NCBI GenBank assembly: GCA_030016635.1
Contig: JASEJQ010000007.1
Coordinates: 1-57,599, forward strand
Source of the DNA: Thermoanaerobacteraceae bacterium
GTDB taxonomy: Bacteria > Bacillota > Thermoanaerobacteria > Thermoanaerobacterales > UBA4877
Direction: 5' to 3'
DNA: 57,599 nt
The number at the start of each line of letters is the position of its first letter. Position 1 is the first letter of the stretch. The translations under genes and the position numbers were made by a program. Below, one piece after another: positions 10,405 to 19,318 of the stretch. The notes beneath the pieces are model-generated. The model was given only the letters and a program-made list of their open reading frames with translations. It had not been told where the DNA came from and did not search any database.

Positions 10405-10476
10405 CAATGCTCCCCCGTTTCTTTTTCATATATTCATATTATAGCCTAAAATACCATTAAAAAACAGTTTAAAATA

Positions 10477-10509
10477 AAATTTAGACAGGGTATCACCCTG
10501 TCTAAATTT
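10477..10509 (-). terminator. Strong terminator ending the M29-DUF6092 operon
   Basis: Perfect 14-bp inverted repeat AAATTTAGACAGGG / CCCTGTCTAAATTT with a 5-base loop. On the minus strand it is followed by TATTTTA. It lies 20 bases past the stop of the last operon gene. Confidence 0.9.
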
Positions 10510-10529
10510 TAGGAAGTTTATGGAGTAGG

Positions 10530-10805
10530 CTATATATAATCGATAACAAGATTTAAAATTTCATTAACCCTTACCTCGAATTTTTCTCTGTCGGTCATTG
10601 TGAGCCTTGTGCATTCTCCAATCTTATCTTTTATTTCCTTTAGCCTTTCATCTGATATGCCATTGTACTGTAAATAATCAATAAACATAGAAACGCTTTC
10701 CATAAGCCTTAAGGGCCCATAGACTTTGGGCTCACGGAAAAGGCCTGCAGCACTGGTAACCATAAATGCCAGTACGTCTTTGTAATCTATCTCATCGGAC
10801 AACAT
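10530..10805 (-). CDS. DUF6092-like small protein
   Basis: A 91-residue soluble, mostly helical protein starting MLSDEIDYKDVLAFMVTSA. The start at 10805 is set by a perfect AAGGAGGT 7 bases upstream; it overlaps the end of the nitroreductase gene by 14 bases, which implies translational coupling. It resembles the small DUF6092 proteins found beside nitroreductases and amidohydrolases in Clostridia; I recall the family from context and am not certain. No catalytic motif is visible. It is the last gene of the operon. Confidence 0.6.
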   Translation of the reverse strand: MLSDEIDYKDVLAFMVTSAAGLFREPKVYGPLRLMESVSMFIDYLQYNGISDERLKEIKDKIGECTRLTMTDREKFEVRVNEILNLVIDYI

Positions 10806-11301
10806 TGAGTACCTCCTTGATATCTCTTCTCCCTGGAGGTTCAGGAATTTCATCAGGATAGCCTATAGTTATTAAAAACTCCGGTTCAAACCCCTCTTTT
10901 AAATCGATTAGCTTTTTCACTGCCTCTCTGTTGAAAGATAGCTTTATGCAACTACCAAGCCCCAGACTGTACGCCGATAACATCATATTTTGAGCTGCCA
11001 TAGCTAAGTCGAAAACATTATCATTGCCCATCCCTTCGCCCTGAGCTTTAATGATGTTTTTATTTAATGATAATACAATTATACAGGGCGGGTTCTCACG
11101 GAACATACCCGGAGAGAATGACCTTATTCTTTTTATTATATCTCTATTCAATATAGCGGTGAAATGCCATGGTTGAAGATTACTGGCTGAAGGTGCCCAT
11201 ATAGCAGCTTCTATAATCTTCATTATAGTGTTCTCATCTAAAGATTCCTCTTTATACTTTCTTATACTCCTTCTGCCCTCTATTGCATCAAATAAATCCA
11301 C
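10792..11301 (-). CDS. Nitroreductase-family FMN oxidoreductase
   Basis: A 169-residue member of the FMN-binding nitroreductase fold. Seen: the N-terminal FMN-phosphate segment RRSIRKYKE, the APSASNLQPWHF motif (about residues 36-47), and the C-terminal IGYPDE. It is compact compared with the usual 180-220. It sits between aroM and the DUF6092-like gene in the same operon. In this context it may reduce an intermediate from the hydantoin-like substrate of the cluster; the actual electron acceptor is unknown. Confidence 0.85.
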   Translation of the reverse strand: MDLFDAIEGRRSIRKYKEESLDENTIMKIIEAAIWAPSASNLQPWHFTAILNRDIIKRIRSFSPGMFRENPPCIIVLSLNKNIIKAQGEGMGNDNVFDLAMAAQNMMLSAYSLGLGSCIKLSFNREAVKKLIDLKEGFEPEFLITIGYPDEIPEPPGRRDIKEVLNVVR

Positions 11302-11312
11302 GATTCCATCTC

Positions 11313-11972
11313 CTAATTTAAAATCTCAGCTGCCACCCTGGCCACCATTGTTCTGGAGAGAATTACCGGTTTACCTGTATATCTTCTTACGGCTTCTTTC
11401 ATCTTAATGCTATAGCCCATGCAGTCCATAACGATAAGGTCACATGCCTTAAGTTTTTCAGCAGCCTTGATTATTTCATTAAAATCTCTATATGGAGAAG
11501 CAGCAGAAACTAAAATATTGTTATATTTACCCCACTTATTTGCGGTCATATCTACCTGGTCCTCATCCGGTACCATGATGCCAGGGCAGATGTCTTGCCT
11601 AAAAGAACTGATTATTCCCTTAATAACATCGCTGGGTTTTATCAAAAGTACCTGAGAATTAAAATTGGGAAACTCGCCGGTACATAACAGTAATATGGCA
11701 TCCACACCAAGATGGTTTAACTCATCAATCTTTTGCTGCATAAGACCAAGTATCTTATTCTCTGAGAGCTTTACTTCCGTCCCGTCCTTTAGCCTTGAAA
11801 CCAGAATATTTACCTCATTTTCAGGAGAAAGTCCATTTATATCTTCCATGGCCAGGCCATCCAGTGCTCCTCTTTCAATAATCTCTACTTCTCCCAATAC
11901 CCTCATGATTTCAGGAATTATGTCCGTCCGCGGGGATTGCCCGATAGTCACTGTCCCTATCCTCTTATTCAT
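11313..11972 (-). CDS. AroM family protein
   Basis: A 219-residue protein with the AroM signature IGTVTIGQSPRTDI at the N terminus and the LLCTGEFP segment near residue 97. AroM proteins belong to the broad Asp/Glu racemase-like superfamily; their reaction is not established. The gene overlaps the upstream DUF1177 stop by 8 bases. AroM, DUF1177, DUF917, OPT and M29-like genes recur together in other genomes, suggesting one pathway. It contains a palindrome copy at 11850-11858 encoding GLA. Confidence 0.85.
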   Translation of the reverse strand: MNKRIGTVTIGQSPRTDIIPEIMRVLGEVEIIERGALDGLAMEDINGLSPENEVNILVSRLKDGTEVKLSENKILGLMQQKIDELNHLGVDAILLLCTGEFPNFNSQVLLIKPSDVIKGIISSFRQDICPGIMVPDEDQVDMTANKWGKYNNILVSAASPYRDFNEIIKAAEKLKACDLIVMDCMGYSIKMKEAVRRYTGKPVILSRTMVARVAAEILN

Positions 11973-12906
11973 TTAAATCACCCTTTTTCTGAAACCTGTT
12001 CATTTCACCATATAGTTCAATAATCTTTTCAAATTCATTCCTGTCATAAAATGCGCATTTACCGTAACCAAAGTTCTTAGCTACTTCTATCACAAATCTT
12101 ACCACTTCCTCGATGTCTGTAACATGGCTCGCACCCGACGCACAACCCGGAACAGGCATTTCGGTTGTTATGGCAATACCTACAACTGGGGAAGAGGTAG
12201 CTACTGAAGGCTGCATAATGCTGTTAATATGAAAAAGTCCATTTCCATATGGGGTTATATCCTGCTCACTTATAGCAAATACTCTCGGTAACCTGCCAGT
12301 CGTGATCTGAATTATGTCCAGCAGGTCTTCGCTTACCTTCAGAATATACCCTTCCTTTACTGTCGGGGATATGGCAAAGCCATTAAAATTTATGATTCTA
12401 TTCCCCTTGGTTGTATCGATGCTTAATATAGCATCCATCTTTTCGTCAACCTCATATCTGTTCATTACATCCATATCAACAGGCGAACCCATGAAAGGCA
12501 CAGGCTCATGGGGAAGTGTAGGAGCAAAAGGACATATATGGGTACCTATAATGACATCACCAGGAAGGACATCCCCTCTTTTATTCATTTCACCTATTTT
12601 AGCTGCTATGGCTATGGCGGCCACTGCTCCATCTCCATCAGATACCAGGCCTATAGCTTCCGGCCTGGCACCTATCCCGCCAAGCCTTCCAATGATGCCC
12701 AGAGTAGGAGCATTCCCATCCCTCATTTTGCCATTATTTCCTGGTATTATTATCTTTACAAAATCTGTATACCCCTCACTCCCCTCGACCCTGGTTACCT
12801 TTACATGCTTAGCTCCGCTTTTCAATAGATAATCCCTTACCTTATTCCCGTCAACGCCCGGGTCATCCAATAAGTCATAAACCTCCATGACGTGTTTGAG
12901 TGACAT
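11965..12906 (-). CDS. DUF1177 family protein
   Basis: A 313-residue protein beginning MSLKHVMEVYDLLDDPGVDG, typical of DUF1177. It has conserved segments GRLGGIGARPEAIGLVSDGDGA and HICPFAPTLPHEPVPFMGSP, both rich in possible metal or phosphate ligands. No function is known for the family. It lies 12 bases downstream of the DUF917 gene and overlaps aroM. A near-copy of the iterated palindrome (8 of 9 bases) occurs at 12662. Confidence 0.8.
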   Translation of the reverse strand: MSLKHVMEVYDLLDDPGVDGNKVRDYLLKSGAKHVKVTRVEGSEGYTDFVKIIIPGNNGKMRDGNAPTLGIIGRLGGIGARPEAIGLVSDGDGAVAAIAIAAKIGEMNKRGDVLPGDVIIGTHICPFAPTLPHEPVPFMGSPVDMDVMNRYEVDEKMDAILSIDTTKGNRIINFNGFAISPTVKEGYILKVSEDLLDIIQITTGRLPRVFAISEQDITPYGNGLFHINSIMQPSVATSSPVVGIAITTEMPVPGCASGASHVTDIEEVVRFVIEVAKNFGYGKCAFYDRNEFEKIIELYGEMNRFQKKGDLNE

Positions 12907-12918
12907 AAAAAGCCTCCT

Positions 12919-13986
12919 TTAGTCCAGATATTTAAGAACTTCTTCACCCGTAACATCCTCTATAGGCTTTAAAAGTTCTTTATCTTTAACCCCACTACCC
13001 AATAAAATACTGTCTTTAGGTATAACTGCTATATAAATCTCATTTCCCTCTTTAATTTCTGCACTACTAATTACTTCCCATTTGATGGCATCAACAGTGA
13101 AAATCAGATCAGGAAATGTGGCTATTCTTTCATTTCCCTTATTTAAAAACATATACTCATTCCAGAAGTATAGTTTATATCTTCCAGAATCGCTATCAAG
13201 TTCCACATATCCGGAATCAAAACCACCCTCTGTATTTAATACCTTCTTTACTACCTTCGCCCTATCAACAATTTTGCCATTTAATTCTTCACACACACTC
13301 TCAATTTTTTTAATTCCATCATTTTTTATATAAATCTCACCTATCTGTAGAGCCTGTCTCATAGTACCTATTGCACAATTATTTTTTGCATAGCTTACGG
13401 TTACAGGATTCCTCAGTACAAATATCATCCCACCTGCCATAACTGATGCATACCTTATCATTGAGGAACACCTGTCCAAATTTCCCTTAATGGCAACTTC
13501 AATATAATTATTATTGTCAGGATTCCCGCCAACAGCAGTCTGGATACTCTCATACCCTACAACCCTGTTCAGACCAATAGAACCCATAACACCAGTCGGA
13601 TGAGCCCGGCCATTGCATGGAGCATCTACTATAGGTATGCCTGTAGCAGCTGATATAACCCAGCCGTTTACAATAGACAGGGCACCCATCTCATTTACGA
13701 TAATACCATCTATGTCTTTTCCATTAATCTCTTTGAACAGCTCCAATGCCTTTAATTGATATGACGGCTCAATATAAGCTCCATCTGCGGCGGGTGCCCC
13801 CACAGAAGAGGCTGTGACAAGAATATCATCATTATTTAGTTCATCTATGCCAATGACATTTACCGTACCCAGGTCTACAGCTATATAAGCCATCTTTTTG
13901 CCCAATTCCTTTAAGCCGCCACCTCCACCTCCTAAGATATTTCCACCTTCGACCAAAAATTCAGCCATATCATGATTTATCTTCAT
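12919..13986 (-). CDS. DUF917 / S-methyl-thiohydantoin desulfurase-like protein
   Basis: A 355-residue DUF917 protein: N-terminal GGNILGGGGGGLKELGKK, central EMGALSIVNGWVISAATGIPIVDAPCNGRAHPT, C-terminal beta-rich half. Pfam now labels the two halves as S-methyl thiohydantoin desulfurase domains, so a hydantoin or thiohydantoin substrate is plausible. It pairs with the hydantoin-racemase-like gene only 2 bases upstream. The family is certain; the chemistry here is inferred from the name and neighbours. Confidence 0.82.
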   Translation of the reverse strand: MKINHDMAEFLVEGGNILGGGGGGLKELGKKMAYIAVDLGTVNVIGIDELNNDDILVTASSVGAPAADGAYIEPSYQLKALELFKEINGKDIDGIIVNEMGALSIVNGWVISAATGIPIVDAPCNGRAHPTGVMGSIGLNRVVGYESIQTAVGGNPDNNNYIEVAIKGNLDRCSSMIRYASVMAGGMIFVLRNPVTVSYAKNNCAIGTMRQALQIGEIYIKNDGIKKIESVCEELNGKIVDRAKVVKKVLNTEGGFDSGYVELDSDSGRYKLYFWNEYMFLNKGNERIATFPDLIFTVDAIKWEVISSAEIKEGNEIYIAVIPKDSILLGSGVKDKELLKPIEDVTGEEVLKYLD

Positions 13987-13988
13987 GG

Positions 13989-14645
13989 TTATTCACCTCT
14001 ATCTTTGCACAATATACCATATGTGACAGCACCTGCTGCTATAACTGCGTCAACTATAGGCACTCCAATGTTGCTTCTTAGATAATCAAGGGCACCAATA
14101 GTGGAAAGACCTGTGCAGGCAAAAGCTATGACATCTGCACCTCTCTCTATCAATCTTTTTGATGCTGTTATAAGTTTTACTTTATTTTCCTCACGCATAA
14201 GGTCAACAGTGTTACTTACGCTTTCGGGTTTTTCTTCACCTATCAGCCGTGTACCCAGCACTTCTTTCATGGCCTTAGGCGTATCTTCTGTTATCCCAAG
14301 GGTTCCAACCATATAACCGGCTGATAGGGCCAGAGCGGCGCAGGCAGTGCCTGCGCCGATAACCGGAATATTCATCTCCCCCCTTAAATTCTTTACAGCC
14401 GGATCGGCGGCACAGCTCACTATTATGGCATCAACACCCTCAGAAAATAGCTCCTTCCCAAGTTTTATAATTTTGGGGATAGCTATTTCTTCAGACTCAT
14501 CATCGTATATACCGTATGGCTGGTCCTCTATACACCGACTGATAACTTGAAAATCCGGAAACAATTTTTCTAAAATCTCACCATGAGAATTTAAAATCTC
14601 AACATTATTCGTTGTTAGTACACGAATGAGACCAATTTTAAACAT
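13989..14645 (-). CDS. Asp/Glu/hydantoin racemase family protein
   Basis: A 218-residue protein with the two catalytic cysteine regions of the cofactor-independent racemases: IIVSCAADPAVK (about residues 77-88) and IAFACTGLSTIG (about 172-183). The family includes aspartate and glutamate racemases and hydantoin racemase (HyuE). Its position between an OPT transporter and a DUF917 gene, together with AllC-like and HyuA-like enzymes elsewhere in the window, favours a 5-substituted hydantoin substrate. This is inference. Confidence 0.85.
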   Translation of the reverse strand: MFKIGLIRVLTTNNVEILNSHGEILEKLFPDFQVISRCIEDQPYGIYDDESEEIAIPKIIKLGKELFSEGVDAIIVSCAADPAVKNLRGEMNIPVIGAGTACAALALSAGYMVGTLGITEDTPKAMKEVLGTRLIGEEKPESVSNTVDLMREENKVKLITASKRLIERGADVIAFACTGLSTIGALDYLRSNIGVPIVDAVIAAGAVTYGILCKDRGE

Positions 14646-14655
14646 GAAATCACCC

Positions 14656-16311
14656 CTATTTTGTCCGTTTAATAAACAAATTCATTGTACTCGTAAAGAA
14701 TGAATATAAAGTTGAACCTGCTATGAATCCAGCTGCTATTATATACATCGACGACTGAATTTTTTGACCATATAACTTCTGCAGAATAACTCTAACCACT
14801 ATGGCTGCCAGGACACCAAATCCGGCATTAGGATTTAAAATAAGTAATCCCGTAGCAAAAAGTATACCTATCTGCTTTTCAGCACCACCTATAAATTGTA
14901 TTGCAGCACCTACTATCGCCCATATCAAGAGGTTTTGAAGCACTCCCGGCTGGGCTCCTGCCTGAATAGTAGCAGCAAATACTCTATCCACTGGTGGGAA
15001 AAGGTCCTGACCAAAATAACTGGAATAGCTGAATATTACTACCACTATAGCCACAAGACCTCCCATAATTTCAGCAAAATACTGCTGTCTTCTACCAAAG
15101 AGCTCAATGTTGGCATCCTTTGATTTGCCTCTTAATAGCCACCCAGTCTTTAGGTCATAACCCATATCTGCAAATGCAGGTCCTGTACAGGCGGTATAAC
15201 CAACAAGAAGCCCCAGTGCCAGTGGTGGGAATCCCATCAACATGCCCAACACAAGGAATATCAGAGCAGTTGCAAATCCCGGAAACCATCCTGCATGCAT
15301 TGCCGAGATGCCTACCATCAACTCCGATACAAGTGCTGATAATGCTGCAAAGACAATCCACCATATTAGCATAGGCAGACTCATATCAGACATTATACCG
15401 CCAATAAGAGCTAATATAAGTCCACCGATGATATATAAAACAAATCCATTCCTTAGTGATTTGAGCATATGCTCAGGTGTCCTTGTCCTGGCATATCCCG
15501 ACTTTTCTTTTCCTGTTTGTGTTAGTCTTTTCCCACGAATGATCATTGTTATTTGTACCAGAGCTACTATGCCTGCACCAATCATAATACCATGAGGTAT
15601 ATAAAGCGCATTTATATCAATACCAAACAAGGGCTTGGAATAACCTCTGATGAGCAAACCAACCCCAAACATAGTTAGTGCCCATTCGTTTCCTATCCAT
15701 GCAACACCTATGACATCCATGGGAATTTTAAAGGCCTGGCCCACTGCACCTACAATACCACCAATTACTAAAAGAATGGCACGCCTGCCGCCTTCTGCTG
15801 CAGCAAGAATTGTTTCACTGGTAGCAATCCCGGGAGGCCAGGCCTCATCAGCAGGAAAAGCCGGCGTATCAAACATCCAGTACATCATTGTTATATCCAC
15901 TATCATTCCAAATGCCGCTCCAAATAACATAGGCATAAGGGATTCTTTATTTCCCATAAGCCATATGGTTCCCATTGCTAAAAGAAGGGCATTACCTGCA
16001 CCAAATGTTGCAGCAGAAACACTCGTCTGTATTAAATTTTGTCTATATATATTTTTAAACCCAGTAAATGCACCTCCTGGAATGAGACCTACAAGAACCG
16101 CTATAAGTGCACCAATAATAGAAGTATTGGCTGTTATTCCCAGCCTCACAATAAGTTCGAGGCCAATTATAGAACCCAAAGCTGAAACAATAAGAGTAAC
16201 AATTATGGTCAAAGGTTCAAAAAGCCTTGGCTGGGGCTCTTTTAAATATGTCTCAATCACTGGATCTAAAGCCCCTACATTGAAATCCCTCTTATTCTCC
16301 GGCAAATCCAT
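14656..16311 (-). CDS. OPT-family (oligopeptide) transporter
   Basis: A membrane protein of 551 residues with about 14 hydrophobic segments, including the OPT signature near the N terminus (IGALIAVLVGLIPGGAFTGF) and the repeated GxxPxG-type loops. OPT proteins import small peptides or metal chelates by proton symport. The frame is open to 16365, but ATG 16311 has AAAGGGGG 6 bases before it and avoids overlapping the upstream gene, so it is preferred. It contains two copies of the iterated palindrome (15733-15741, 15836-15844), in different frames. It is probably the importer for the substrate of this operon. Confidence 0.87.
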   Translation of the reverse strand: MDLPENKRDFNVGALDPVIETYLKEPQPRLFEPLTIIVTLIVSALGSIIGLELIVRLGITANTSIIGALIAVLVGLIPGGAFTGFKNIYRQNLIQTSVSAATFGAGNALLLAMGTIWLMGNKESLMPMLFGAAFGMIVDITMMYWMFDTPAFPADEAWPPGIATSETILAAAEGGRRAILLVIGGIVGAVGQAFKIPMDVIGVAWIGNEWALTMFGVGLLIRGYSKPLFGIDINALYIPHGIMIGAGIVALVQITMIIRGKRLTQTGKEKSGYARTRTPEHMLKSLRNGFVLYIIGGLILALIGGIMSDMSLPMLIWWIVFAALSALVSELMVGISAMHAGWFPGFATALIFLVLGMLMGFPPLALGLLVGYTACTGPAFADMGYDLKTGWLLRGKSKDANIELFGRRQQYFAEIMGGLVAIVVVIFSYSSYFGQDLFPPVDRVFAATIQAGAQPGVLQNLLIWAIVGAAIQFIGGAEKQIGILFATGLLILNPNAGFGVLAAIVVRVILQKLYGQKIQSSMYIIAAGFIAGSTLYSFFTSTMNLFIKRTK

Positions 16312-16334
16312 AAACATCCCCCTTTTAATTGAAT

Positions 16335-17399
16335 TTAGTAACCAGGTACACCTAATTTTCTGCAATACTCTCTTATTTCTTCCTTTACATATACACCCTC
16401 CTCCTCTATTACTTCACCATCAAGAATGATGGTGGGATTTAATACAATACCATCGGTATGAGAGGCAGAAGACCAGGTTTTACCCATAATCTGCGCCCCC
16501 TGGCTGCCCAGTCCAAACTCAATGCAGCCAAATACCCTTTCATCCTCAACTATTCTCCCTGTAGGTTTGGTTATCCTGGGGCTAAACCCAAGAGAGTAGT
16601 GTGCAACCCTGTACATCGTCGGATCATTGAAACCGGCCATCCATCTTTCAAATACCCTGGCCTCAGCGTCGCCATCTATTTTTGTAGCCACACCATTTTC
16701 TATTGTAAGTTTTATTCGTGATGAAAGTTTCCCAAGCTCGGCGGGTGGCCATACAGCCCCGTCAAAAACAATTTTCCCATTTATGGTCTCCTCTGTAGGG
16801 CACCATGAGACCTGTCCTCCAAGCATCACTGGTTCTCCCTTTTTATCTGCAAGTTTTCCTGACACCCTGGCTCTCCTGCCCCTGTTGTATGCTATGAGAT
16901 CAGTACCCCCAGGGCTCTTAATTTCAACCTTATCTGCTTTTTGAACAATTTCTTTGAGAAGATTGCTCATCACTATTAAAAGGTTATAGTCAACCCTCCC
17001 AATGGTATTTACCATCATCGTAACATCCATACCAGGAAGGCAAAGATATCTTGTGCCATTATCCAGGGCTGCCCTCCATGCTCTTGTATGTTGAATGTAC
17101 GAAACTGCGTACTCTATCCAGACGTCACTTTCTTTAATAGCACCAGCAACTGGAGCTGGTGGCTCCATTACTGCTGTAGGATTAGTGTGATAAAGTATTA
17201 TAGTCGGAATAGCATCTGCGGCGTATACGGCTTTTGCTGTTTCAGCAACCACGCGCATATCAGAAGAAGTATCTGCTGTGATGACAACATTCTCGTCCTT
17301 TTTCACAAGTGCAATCTCCTCAACCAATTTCCTTGCACTTTTAGCTACTTCGAGACCCAGGTATTCACCCCTTGTCTCTGTACCTAAAGCAATGTCCAT
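16335..17399 (-). CDS. M29/NicX-like metalloenzyme
   Basis: A 354-residue protein resembling the aminopeptidase T (M29) and 2,5-dihydroxypyridine dioxygenase (NicX) superfamily: N-terminal Rossmann-like half with VVITADTSSDMRVV, C-terminal metal-binding half with GCIEFGLGSQG and ASHTDGIVLNPTI. It could cleave a peptide bond or open a ring; the sequence does not decide. The start is ATG 17399, with GAGGAGG about 9 bases upstream; a TTG at 17405 is too close. It is the first gene of the eight-gene operon ending at 10530. Confidence 0.75.
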   Translation of the reverse strand: MDIALGTETRGEYLGLEVAKSARKLVEEIALVKKDENVVITADTSSDMRVVAETAKAVYAADAIPTIILYHTNPTAVMEPPAPVAGAIKESDVWIEYAVSYIQHTRAWRAALDNGTRYLCLPGMDVTMMVNTIGRVDYNLLIVMSNLLKEIVQKADKVEIKSPGGTDLIAYNRGRRARVSGKLADKKGEPVMLGGQVSWCPTEETINGKIVFDGAVWPPAELGKLSSRIKLTIENGVATKIDGDAEARVFERWMAGFNDPTMYRVAHYSLGFSPRITKPTGRIVEDERVFGCIEFGLGSQGAQIMGKTWSSASHTDGIVLNPTIILDGEVIEEEGVYVKEEIREYCRKLGVPGY

Positions 17400-17669
17400 C
17401 TTCAACTACCTCCTCATTTCTTAAACTTCAAATAGTACCCTCATTCCATATTTCAGTAAGACAGGCATTATAACCTACAATTTCATAAAATCTACCCCAT
17501 AAATGAATTAATTTATCTGTTAACTTTCATGATTCGTTTAAATAAAAGTTTTATCGATATAGCGATATCTGTTATATTATGCATAATCACTGATAATATT
17601 GGCTCTGCAAATTAATATTATTTTATATTAATATTTATTAAATTGATATATACAAAATATATAAAATCA
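17400..17669 (-). promoter_or_regulatory. Promoter region of the M29/OPT/DUF917 operon
   Basis: AT-rich region without a gene. On the minus strand a TATAAT lies at 17472-17467, but without a good -35. Two dyads, ATTATGCATAAT (17576-17587) and GATATAGCGATATC (17556-17569), are candidate sites for the adjacent PucR-type regulator. No sigma-54 type promoter is seen here. Confidence 0.4.
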
Positions 17670-17708
17670 GGGAAGAATATTTGGCTATGGTAACCAAATG
17701 TCCTTCCC
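17670..17708 (-). terminator. Hairpin after the pucR-type gene
   Basis: Inverted repeat GGGAAGAATATTTGG / CCAAATGTCCTTCCC with one internal mismatch region, 8 bases beyond the regulator stop. No clean T-run follows on the minus strand, so read-through into the next operon is possible. Confidence 0.65.
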
Positions 17709-17716
17709 TTAAGGAT

Positions 17717-19318
17717 TTATATTATGCTCAAGTCCATCAGTTTTAAAGCCATATGATATCCAAAAATTTCTTTATCATCATTTAGTTCTGTCCCCAACAG
17801 TTCCTTTATTTTATCTATGCGATATATAAGGGTATTTCTGTGTATATATAGCTTATCGGCAGTCTTTTTTATATTCATCTGGCTATCAAGAAATTCTTTA
17901 AACGTAGGAATTAACTGTGATTTATATTTTTTATCGTATTCAATAAGTGGACCCAGTTTCGATATTACATATTTTTTTGAGTCAGCATCATTAGTTAGTT
18001 TAGCCAGTATCTTATAAACCCCTACATCATCAAAAAGGTATATCTTTCCCCTTCCCCACATCCTTTCACCTATTTTTATCGATTCCATCGCTTCCCTATA
18101 AGAGCTGGATACTATGAGCAGGTTTTCCACTGGCCTGCCTATACCAATAGTAAACTCAATTTTAGAAAATTTTTGCTTAATAATTTCTTCTATTCGCCCC
18201 GATATCATTGATGCTTTCTCATACAGTCCTCCTGAACAGAATGCTATAATATAATCGCTAAACAATGCAGTCTTTATATTACCCAGAGGTTCTATAATTT
18301 CATTGATCTCTTTAAATATCCTTTCGTTCACATTACAACCCTTTTTCTCAGGACCTGTATTATAATTCCTTTGATAAGTGACAATAACCATGCTGAAATA
18401 CTTTCTATAAACATCCCAGCCCAGTCTTTTTGCTCTTTCTATAACAAGGCTTTCATCAACAAAATTTCCTGTAAGCAAATCATAAAGAAAATTACCCTCA
18501 ATTCTCCTGTTGTTCTCCTCAATCAGGTCCTGCTTTAGATATTGAATGGCAATAACTGTTGCAGTCATTTCTGCTGTCATGGTGTTTATAAGCTGCATAT
18601 TTTTATCTGATATTATTACCAGATATCCTCTTATATCCCCTTTTACTGAAAGAGGCGTTACAACATATACCTTAGACTGGTAATATTGATCTTCGTATAT
18701 GCCAGTCCTATCTTTATTTGGGCAAGTAATGTGGTTCAAAACTATTCCATTCAAATCATTTGAAATAATTTTGTCAGATTTATTAAATACAATATTAAGG
18801 TCCTCGTCCAGGAGAATTACGGGAATATCTATCAAATGGGATAATTTCTCCAAAAATGTCGATGTGCTATCATCAGTCAAAACTGCCTCAGTAAGTTTTT
18901 CATGAACCCTCAAGATGTTATTTAATAACTCCGACTGGTCATGTACAATCTTCGTAAGAACAGAGTTAATAATGTCTGCATAGGGTGCTTTTGTTTTGAG
19001 ATTTATTATAGTAAAATCTGCATTATTTGCCATCTCAATAATATCCCAGGGTAGTTCGTCAATATATCTGCCAAGCTTGATTCCAAGGCCCGAAGCTTTA
19101 GCTTTAATAAGATAGCTTATCAGCTGCCTTAGTTTTTCCTTGCTGTCTCTGTAAGCATAGCCAGCAGTGATATAAAACCCGCCCTCTTTTATCCACCCTG
19201 TTACATCAGGAACTTCTATGACATCTATGCATGTAACATTTCTCTCAAGCCCATTCTTGCCTGCTATTAATTTAGAACCTTTTACTTCCCTCAATTTAAA
19301 TATATCTTTAACCTTCAT
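17717..19318 (-). CDS. PucR-family transcriptional regulator
   Basis: A 533-residue regulator with an N-terminal PucR domain (about 1-125, starting MKVKDIFKLREVKGSKLIAG), a middle GGDEF-like/CdaR sensor region and a C-terminal PucR helix-turn-helix (NIKKTADKLYIHRNTLIYRIDKIKELLG, about 485-512). In Bacillus PucR controls purine and ureide catabolism genes. It sits between the purine operon (upstream, separated by a terminator) and the M29/OPT operon (downstream), so either could be its target. The start is ATG 19318; GGAGG is about 20 bases away, so initiation there is not strongly supported. Confidence 0.9.
   Translation of the reverse strand: MKVKDIFKLREVKGSKLIAGKNGLERNVTCIDVIEVPDVTGWIKEGGFYITAGYAYRDSKEKLRQLISYLIKAKASGLGIKLGRYIDELPWDIIEMANNADFTIINLKTKAPYADIINSVLTKIVHDQSELLNNILRVHEKLTEAVLTDDSTSTFLEKLSHLIDIPVILLDEDLNIVFNKSDKIISNDLNGIVLNHITCPNKDRTGIYEDQYYQSKVYVVTPLSVKGDIRGYLVIISDKNMQLINTMTAEMTATVIAIQYLKQDLIEENNRRIEGNFLYDLLTGNFVDESLVIERAKRLGWDVYRKYFSMVIVTYQRNYNTGPEKKGCNVNERIFKEINEIIEPLGNIKTALFSDYIIAFCSGGLYEKASMISGRIEEIIKQKFSKIEFTIGIGRPVENLLIVSSSYREAMESIKIGERMWGRGKIYLFDDVGVYKILAKLTNDADSKKYVISKLGPLIEYDKKYKSQLIPTFKEFLDSQMNIKKTADKLYIHRNTLIYRIDKIKELLGTELNDDKEIFGYHMALKLMDLSII

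Follow-up and report, generated by a model that had tools for sequence, protein, structure and literature searches.

An import-type operon joining DUF1177 and AroM to a predicted cyclodipeptide-oxidase-like pair in a Thermoanaerobacteraceae bacterium

What is the function of an operon that places an importer beside DUF1177 and AroM proteins? The question is raised by a stretch of 57,599 nucleotides from a Thermoanaerobacteraceae bacterium (assembly GCA_030016635.1, contig JASEJQ010000007.1, positions 1 to 57,599; hereafter the window). Between 17399 and 10530 its minus strand carries eight close-set genes, which encode in this order a NicX/M29-like protein, an OPT importer, a racemase, DUF917, DUF1177, AroM, a nitroreductase (CDOA) and a DUF6092 protein (CDOB). 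We propose that this operon serves to import and catabolise cyclic amides derived from peptides, among which 2,5-diketopiperazines (cyclic dipeptides) and rings like them are the likeliest, and we give this proposal an even chance of being correct. Uptake and use would be its direction, rather than biosynthesis, because an importer and a regulator are present. Cyclic or modified dipeptides are suggested as substrates by the peptide-type importers and peptidases found around DUF1177, by the predicted peptidase fold of DUF1177 itself and by the last two genes, which resemble those of a cyclodipeptide oxidase (CDO).

Operon layout and the CDOA/CDOB pair

The features of the locus, in order of transcription, are as follows.

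17717..19318, minus strand: PucR-type regulator, a recurring neighbour of the module
17669..17709, minus strand: terminator-like hairpin behind pucR
16335..17399, minus strand: NicX/M29-superfamily protein with a NicX-type metal triad (H269, H316, D318)
14656..16317, minus strand: OPT-family importer (start at 16317 or 16311)
13989..14645, minus strand: Asp/Glu/hydantoin racemase family protein (RAC); nearest solved relative 2eq5, Cys78/Cys177 invariant
12919..13986, minus strand: DUF917 (S-Me-THD-like) protein
11965..12906, minus strand: DUF1177 protein with a predicted clan-MH zinc-aminopeptidase fold
11313..11972, minus strand: AroM family protein with a predicted racemase fold, Cys97/Cys184
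10792..11301, minus strand: CDOA, AlbA-like nitroreductase-fold subunit of a predicted CDO-like enzyme
10530..10805, minus strand: CDOB, predicted AlbB-like subunit (PF19585/DUF6092); its longest frame begins at 10853
10475..10511, minus strand: intrinsic operon terminator

Gaps within the operon measure 2 to ~20 nt, and the DUF1177 and AroM genes overlap by 8 nt. The CDOA and CDOB genes share 14 nt if CDOB starts at 10805 and 62 nt if it starts at 10853; the former start has the better ribosome-binding site. Plausible ribosome-binding sites precede nearly all eight genes. The unit ends in a 17-bp hairpin (10511-10475) followed by T's, with a folding energy of -22.3 kcal/mol (z -8.3) that none of the shuffled sequences equalled; the consensus terminator scan did not pick up this hairpin, which is shown by its folding energy against shuffles. 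The upstream regulator gene is likewise followed by a hairpin, at 17709-17669. An earlier note, made from the letters of the window, had described a tightly packed eight-gene operon with a strong terminator and a PucR-type regulator in front, and this description stands in full. Its family names also hold by Pfam (OPT, 5e-19; Asp/Glu/hydantoin racemase, 1.3e-22; both S-Me-THD domains of DUF917, ~1e-21; DUF1177, 5e-136; AroM, 1e-74; nitroreductase, 3.9e-31; DUF6092, 1.7e-21) but three points need correcting: the nitroreductase and DUF6092 proteins to CDOA and CDOB, DUF1177 to a predicted zinc-aminopeptidase fold, and the supposed M29 protein to one with a NicX-type triad. DUF1177, AroM and DUF6092 are each encoded once in the 2.35-Mb genome, so that chance adjacency is below 1% for each pair; DUF917 occurs twice. 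A second genus of the family (L126) retains the block in the same order, with an extra racemase gene between its PucR and NicX-like genes.

By sequence, the nitroreductase and DUF6092 proteins make up the CDOA and CDOB subunits of a CDO-like (AlbA/AlbB) enzyme. In a search of the PDB, CDOA matches AlbA (8uc3_A) at 1.3e-22, and only the nitroreductase entry 9exv ranks higher. The single PDB match of CDOB, AlbB (8uc3_D), is weak on its own (E 0.024); CDOB is identified because PF19585 (DUF6092), given as the CDOB family in PMC11055893, is matched by a stretch of AlbB at 1.1e-18. As in AlbA/AlbB of Streptomyces noursei (PMC11055893; PDB 8uc3), adjacent and overlapping genes encode a nitroreductase-fold (PF00881) CDOA and a PF19585 CDOB. 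Residues R10, R14, S40, N41 and R158 of CDOA correspond to R24, R28, S54, N55 and R175 of AlbA, and E41, P42, Y45 and R49 of CDOB to E33, P34, the catalytic Y37 and R41 of AlbB; all are kept, including the phosphate-binding arginines, the Ser54/Asn55 equivalents and the catalytic tyrosine with its Glu, Pro and Arg companions. Unlike AlbA/AlbB, the window pair lacks the flavin-linking cysteine (Cys115 of AlbA) and a cyclodipeptide synthase (CDPS) partner, sits in an import-type operon and belongs to a genome without a haem-copper oxidase match. We name the pair CDO-like because this cysteine and most of the conserved CPVG stretch are lost and its activity is read from sequence. Only CDPS-associated CDOs attach the flavin covalently through Cys115; the cysteine is likewise missing from CDO-like proteins encoded away from CDPS genes. 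CDO-like enzymes outside antibiotic clusters form the majority, and CDOs have been noted in anaerobes (PMC11055893).

The genome gave no match to COX1, the haem-copper oxidase. Oxygen-dependent roles of the NicX-like and CDO-like proteins therefore look unlikely. The host is probably an anaerobe.

Predicted folds of the partner proteins

Comparison of the DUF1177 sequence with solved structures gave no real match, so its fold is predicted. An AlphaFold2 model built from 59 sequences (pLDDT 88.8, pTM 0.91) retrieved M28, M20 and M17 metallopeptidases in Foldseek (best 4e-8) and aligned with M28 and M42 aminopeptidases at a VIA Z of ~18 over ~230 residues. The model thus predicts a zinc-aminopeptidase (clan MH) fold, like that of the M28, M42 and M20 enzymes, whereas identity to these is ~8-17% and the HxD motif, which we take to be the usual metal motif of the clan, is not evident. 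Conserved D90, D92, H123, H133, D164 and H226 are candidate metal ligands by position only. The literature searched yielded no relevant paper on the function of DUF1177, nor an established reaction for DUF1177 or AroM.

The NicX/M29-like protein has no Pfam or NCBIfam match. In a single-sequence search its sole PDB relative is the 2,5-dihydroxypyridine dioxygenase NicX (7cn3; PMC7910607), at 3.5e-8; a profile comparison with NicX gives 2.7e-28. H269, H316 and D318 align with the iron ligands His265, His318 and Asp320 of NicX. Homology to NicX is thus clear and the His-His-Asp triad is shared; in contrast, the fourth ligand, Ser302, is replaced by Gly, and an oxygen-dependent role would not suit the genome. 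The alignment of this family (A4) holds two groups, of which the longer includes the window protein; the shorter, often encoded after AroM in other genomes, has Glu in place of His269. At the LAE and GTVH positions of the short group, whose Glu and His we take to be the M29 aminopeptidase ligands, the window protein carries His (VAH) and Glu (GCIE) instead.

RAC is close in sequence to 2eq5 (1.7e-97), and the model of AroM (pLDDT 95.9) resembles 2eq5 and further racemase-superfamily structures, cofactor-independent racemases. With their two cysteines (Cys78/Cys177 and Cys97/Cys184) invariant in the alignments, both belong to the Asp/Glu/hydantoin racemase superfamily, AroM by its modelled fold, and are putative racemases or epimerases. 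NCBIfam names two (thio)hydantoin desulfurase equivalogs inside DUF917 (NF058529, NF058532). The window protein belongs to the same family but its scores of 285.8 and 236.9 bits fall under their cut-offs of 440 and 450.

DUF1177 and CDO modules in other genomes

Loci encoding DUF1177 were gathered from genomes (80 loci), plasmids (6 loci) and related genomes, giving 56 non-redundant loci of at least 12 kb from bacteria and archaea, and neighbours were counted up to 8 kb to either side. Since the 80 genome loci were the top-ranking matches among a larger number, the frequencies do not represent a random sample: AroM was found in 33/56, M29/NicX in 26, DUF917 in 25, and PucR and the racemase in 21 each. 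OPT and OppB each occurred in 19/56, and OPT or any Opp/Dpp-type part in 39/56, a count that takes in profile-recognised ABC ATPases and is perhaps slightly high. Peptidases of the M20, M24 or PepE type lie near DUF1177 in some of the loci, and HyuA/HyuB genes in some. Linkage in other genomes, which the earlier note had named as its refuting test, thus held, and DUF1177 is a conserved partner of AroM. A near-complete order (PucR or IclR, OPT, racemase, DUF917, DUF1177, AroM, M29) is found in Bacillota and Synergistaceae; Thermococcus has a near-complete module too, but with OPT at the opposite end.

Several individual loci deserve mention. A family of ~281 aa without a significant Pfam match is encoded at or near AroM in DUF1177 clusters of Bacillota (L039:6155-7000 and relatives, nine loci). 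On a conjugative plasmid of Klebsiella pneumoniae (L002, 5559-10966), genes for IclR, OPT, DUF1177, AroM, PepE and a racemase are flanked on both sides by transposase genes; the module can therefore be mobile in enterobacteria. In the DUF1177 cluster of a haloarchaeon, Salinigranum, a 285-aa nitroreductase with ~100 extra C-terminal residues is encoded between the M29 and racemase genes (L005:11533-12390); a fused CDOB domain was looked for in it, but DUF6092 gave no match at E 0.001.

Among 398 genomes of the phylum, 10 encode CDOB, one of these being the window's own; on plasmids CDOB gave no match. At most of the other CDO loci there are genes for Opp/Dpp importers, DUF917, M29-type proteins, PucR or NCS1. 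In one Opp/DUF917/M29 cluster, CDOA and CDOB form a fused polypeptide with nitroreductase and DUF6092 domains (L121:5294-6268). Both modules occur in one Thermococcus genome and in a clostridial genome (L024) as separate clusters with partners of the same kinds: the CDO locus, apart from DUF1177, reads racemase, CDOA, CDOB, Opp, racemase, DUF917 in the former and CDOA, CDOB, PucR, Opp, M29, DUF917 in the latter. With these 2 out of 40 DUF1177 genomes having CDOB, each at another locus, we rejected the idea that CDO belongs to the core partners of DUF1177. Thus two modules that stand apart elsewhere, CDO and OPT-RAC-DUF917-DUF1177-AroM, are merged in the window and its sister genus.

Part of this association was already known. 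Hydantoin racemase, DUF917, AroM, OPT or dipeptide ABC importers and peptidases are enriched near CDO genes outside CDPS clusters (Andreas and Giessen 2024, PMC11055893), and the window operon shares the racemase, DUF917, AroM and OPT with them; unlike those clusters, for which DUF1177 is not mentioned, it merges its CDO pair with a DUF1177 module. New here are the recognition of the window pair as CDO-like, the DUF1177-AroM partnership, the predicted fold of DUF1177, the NicX-type triad, the merged module and its likely catabolic direction. The view that four of the operon's families lack an established reaction is partly out of date, given the assignment of DUF6092 as the CDO B subunit (PMC11055893) and the desulfurase equivalogs in DUF917.

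The AllC-like gene, said to follow the operon, is located downstream as described but lies beyond the terminator, shows linkage in the window and the sister genus alone, and was rejected as an operon member. Upstream, at 19442-42785, is a large, partly annotated purine-type cluster with genes for a xanthine-dehydrogenase-type enzyme, SsnA, adenine deaminase, an allantoinase-like protein, a carbamoyltransferase, 8-oxoguanine deaminase and serine hydroxymethyltransferase. A purine or ureide link through these neighbours was rejected, since relatives of xdh, ssnA, preA and ygeW are not beside DUF1177 elsewhere. By terminator and conservation, the AllC-like and purine genes are separate units. On contig C29 of the same genome (L136, 3418-11564), genes for a sigma-54 activator, an NCS1 permease, DUF917, HyuA, an Asp/Glu/hydantoin racemase and D-serine ammonia-lyase form what looks like a separate, typical hydantoin-type cluster.

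Proposed substrate and direction of the pathway

The proposed pathway would begin with import of the compound by the OPT protein. RAC and AroM would epimerise the compound or its ring-opened product, CDOA/CDOB would oxidise the alpha-beta carbon bond beside the ring and pass electrons to an acceptor other than oxygen, and the metal-dependent hydrolases (DUF917, the peptidase-fold DUF1177 and perhaps the NicX-like protein) would open the ring. The product could then be split into amino acids, or into keto acids and ammonia, with PucR controlling the unit. It is tempting to go further and suggest an oxygen-independent breakdown of cyclic dipeptides, in which a CDO-like enzyme feeds an anaerobic acceptor and DUF1177 and AroM act as a new hydrolase/epimerase pair on the ring or the opened product; we offer this extension tentatively, as possible rather than probable. 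The literature searched yielded nothing matching on catabolic clusters for diketopiperazines.

Several observations weigh against cyclic dipeptides as substrates. An NCS1 permease takes the importer's place in 6/56 DUF1177 loci, and CDOB is present in only 2 of 40 DUF1177 genomes, both times at a different locus. CDOA carries D99 at the position of Cys115, where FMN (flavin mononucleotide) would be covalently bound, and most of its CPVG stretch is missing. The chemistry of CDO-like proteins outside CDPS clusters is putative, the DUF1177 metal ligands are candidates by position, and DUF917 and the racemase look, from their sequences, nearer to hydantoin chemistry. We infer the substrate of every operon gene, as well as the order of steps, the hydrolase roles, the electron acceptor and the regulation.

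Hydantoins or other five-membered ureides could instead be degraded, the racemase, DUF917 and the AllC-like carbamoylase leading through an N-carbamoyl amino acid to the amino acid, with the CDO-like pair acting on the hydantoin ring. The nearest solved relative of RAC (1.7e-97) is named a hydantoin racemase, but the annotation of 2eq5 gives this activity as hypothetical; DUF917 reaches 286 bits against a thiohydantoin desulfurase; NCS1 (6/56) or HyuA/HyuB accompany DUF1177 in some loci; and hydantoin- or allantoin-like substrates are preferred for non-CDPS CDOs in PMC11055893. An AllC-like gene downstream and an allantoinase-like gene upstream also fit, yet the former lies past the terminator with linkage confined to the window and its sister genus, purine genes are unlinked elsewhere, importers are mostly of the OPT or Opp/Dpp type, and the genome has its separate hydantoin-type cluster. 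We regard this alternative as rather unlikely. Dipeptides are favoured over ureides because of the OPT/Opp/Dpp importers, the CDO-like pair, the unlinked purine genes and the separate cluster, and hydantoins keep a place among the candidate substrates because of DUF917 and the racemase. Of the earlier suggestion, the uptake and degradation of cyclic amides or modified dipeptides are thereby supported, while the evidence leans away from ureides.

As substrates, we consider linear peptides that carry unusual residues (D-, beta- or isopeptide-linked) quite improbable. OPT would import them, the racemase-fold proteins would invert residues and DUF1177 with related metallo-enzymes would cleave, the CDO-like pair acting other than in diketopiperazine oxidation. 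Oligopeptide-type importers and recurrent peptidase genes (M20, M24, PepE, the short M29-like group) around DUF1177, its predicted peptidase fold and the absence of CDO from most DUF1177 clusters agree with this, whereas the named relatives of DUF917 act on five-membered ring amides and the window pair keeps the CDO catalytic residues. That the operon makes a modified cyclic peptide or a hydantoin metabolite, like the CDO clusters of the albonoursin type, appears very improbable: every CDO with a known role is biosynthetic (PMC11055893), but the operon includes no CDPS gene or exporter and has instead an importer and proteins with hydrolase folds, together with a PucR-type regulator, and importers that depend on binding proteins are found at the CDO loci of the phylum.

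The proposed catabolism of peptide-derived cyclic amides places DUF1177, AroM and a CDO-like enzyme in one transcription unit with an importer, beside a regulator. The predicted zinc-peptidase fold provides a first mechanistic handle on DUF1177, and the unit as a whole suggests a testable role, in which cyclic dipeptides or rings of that kind would be used anaerobically.

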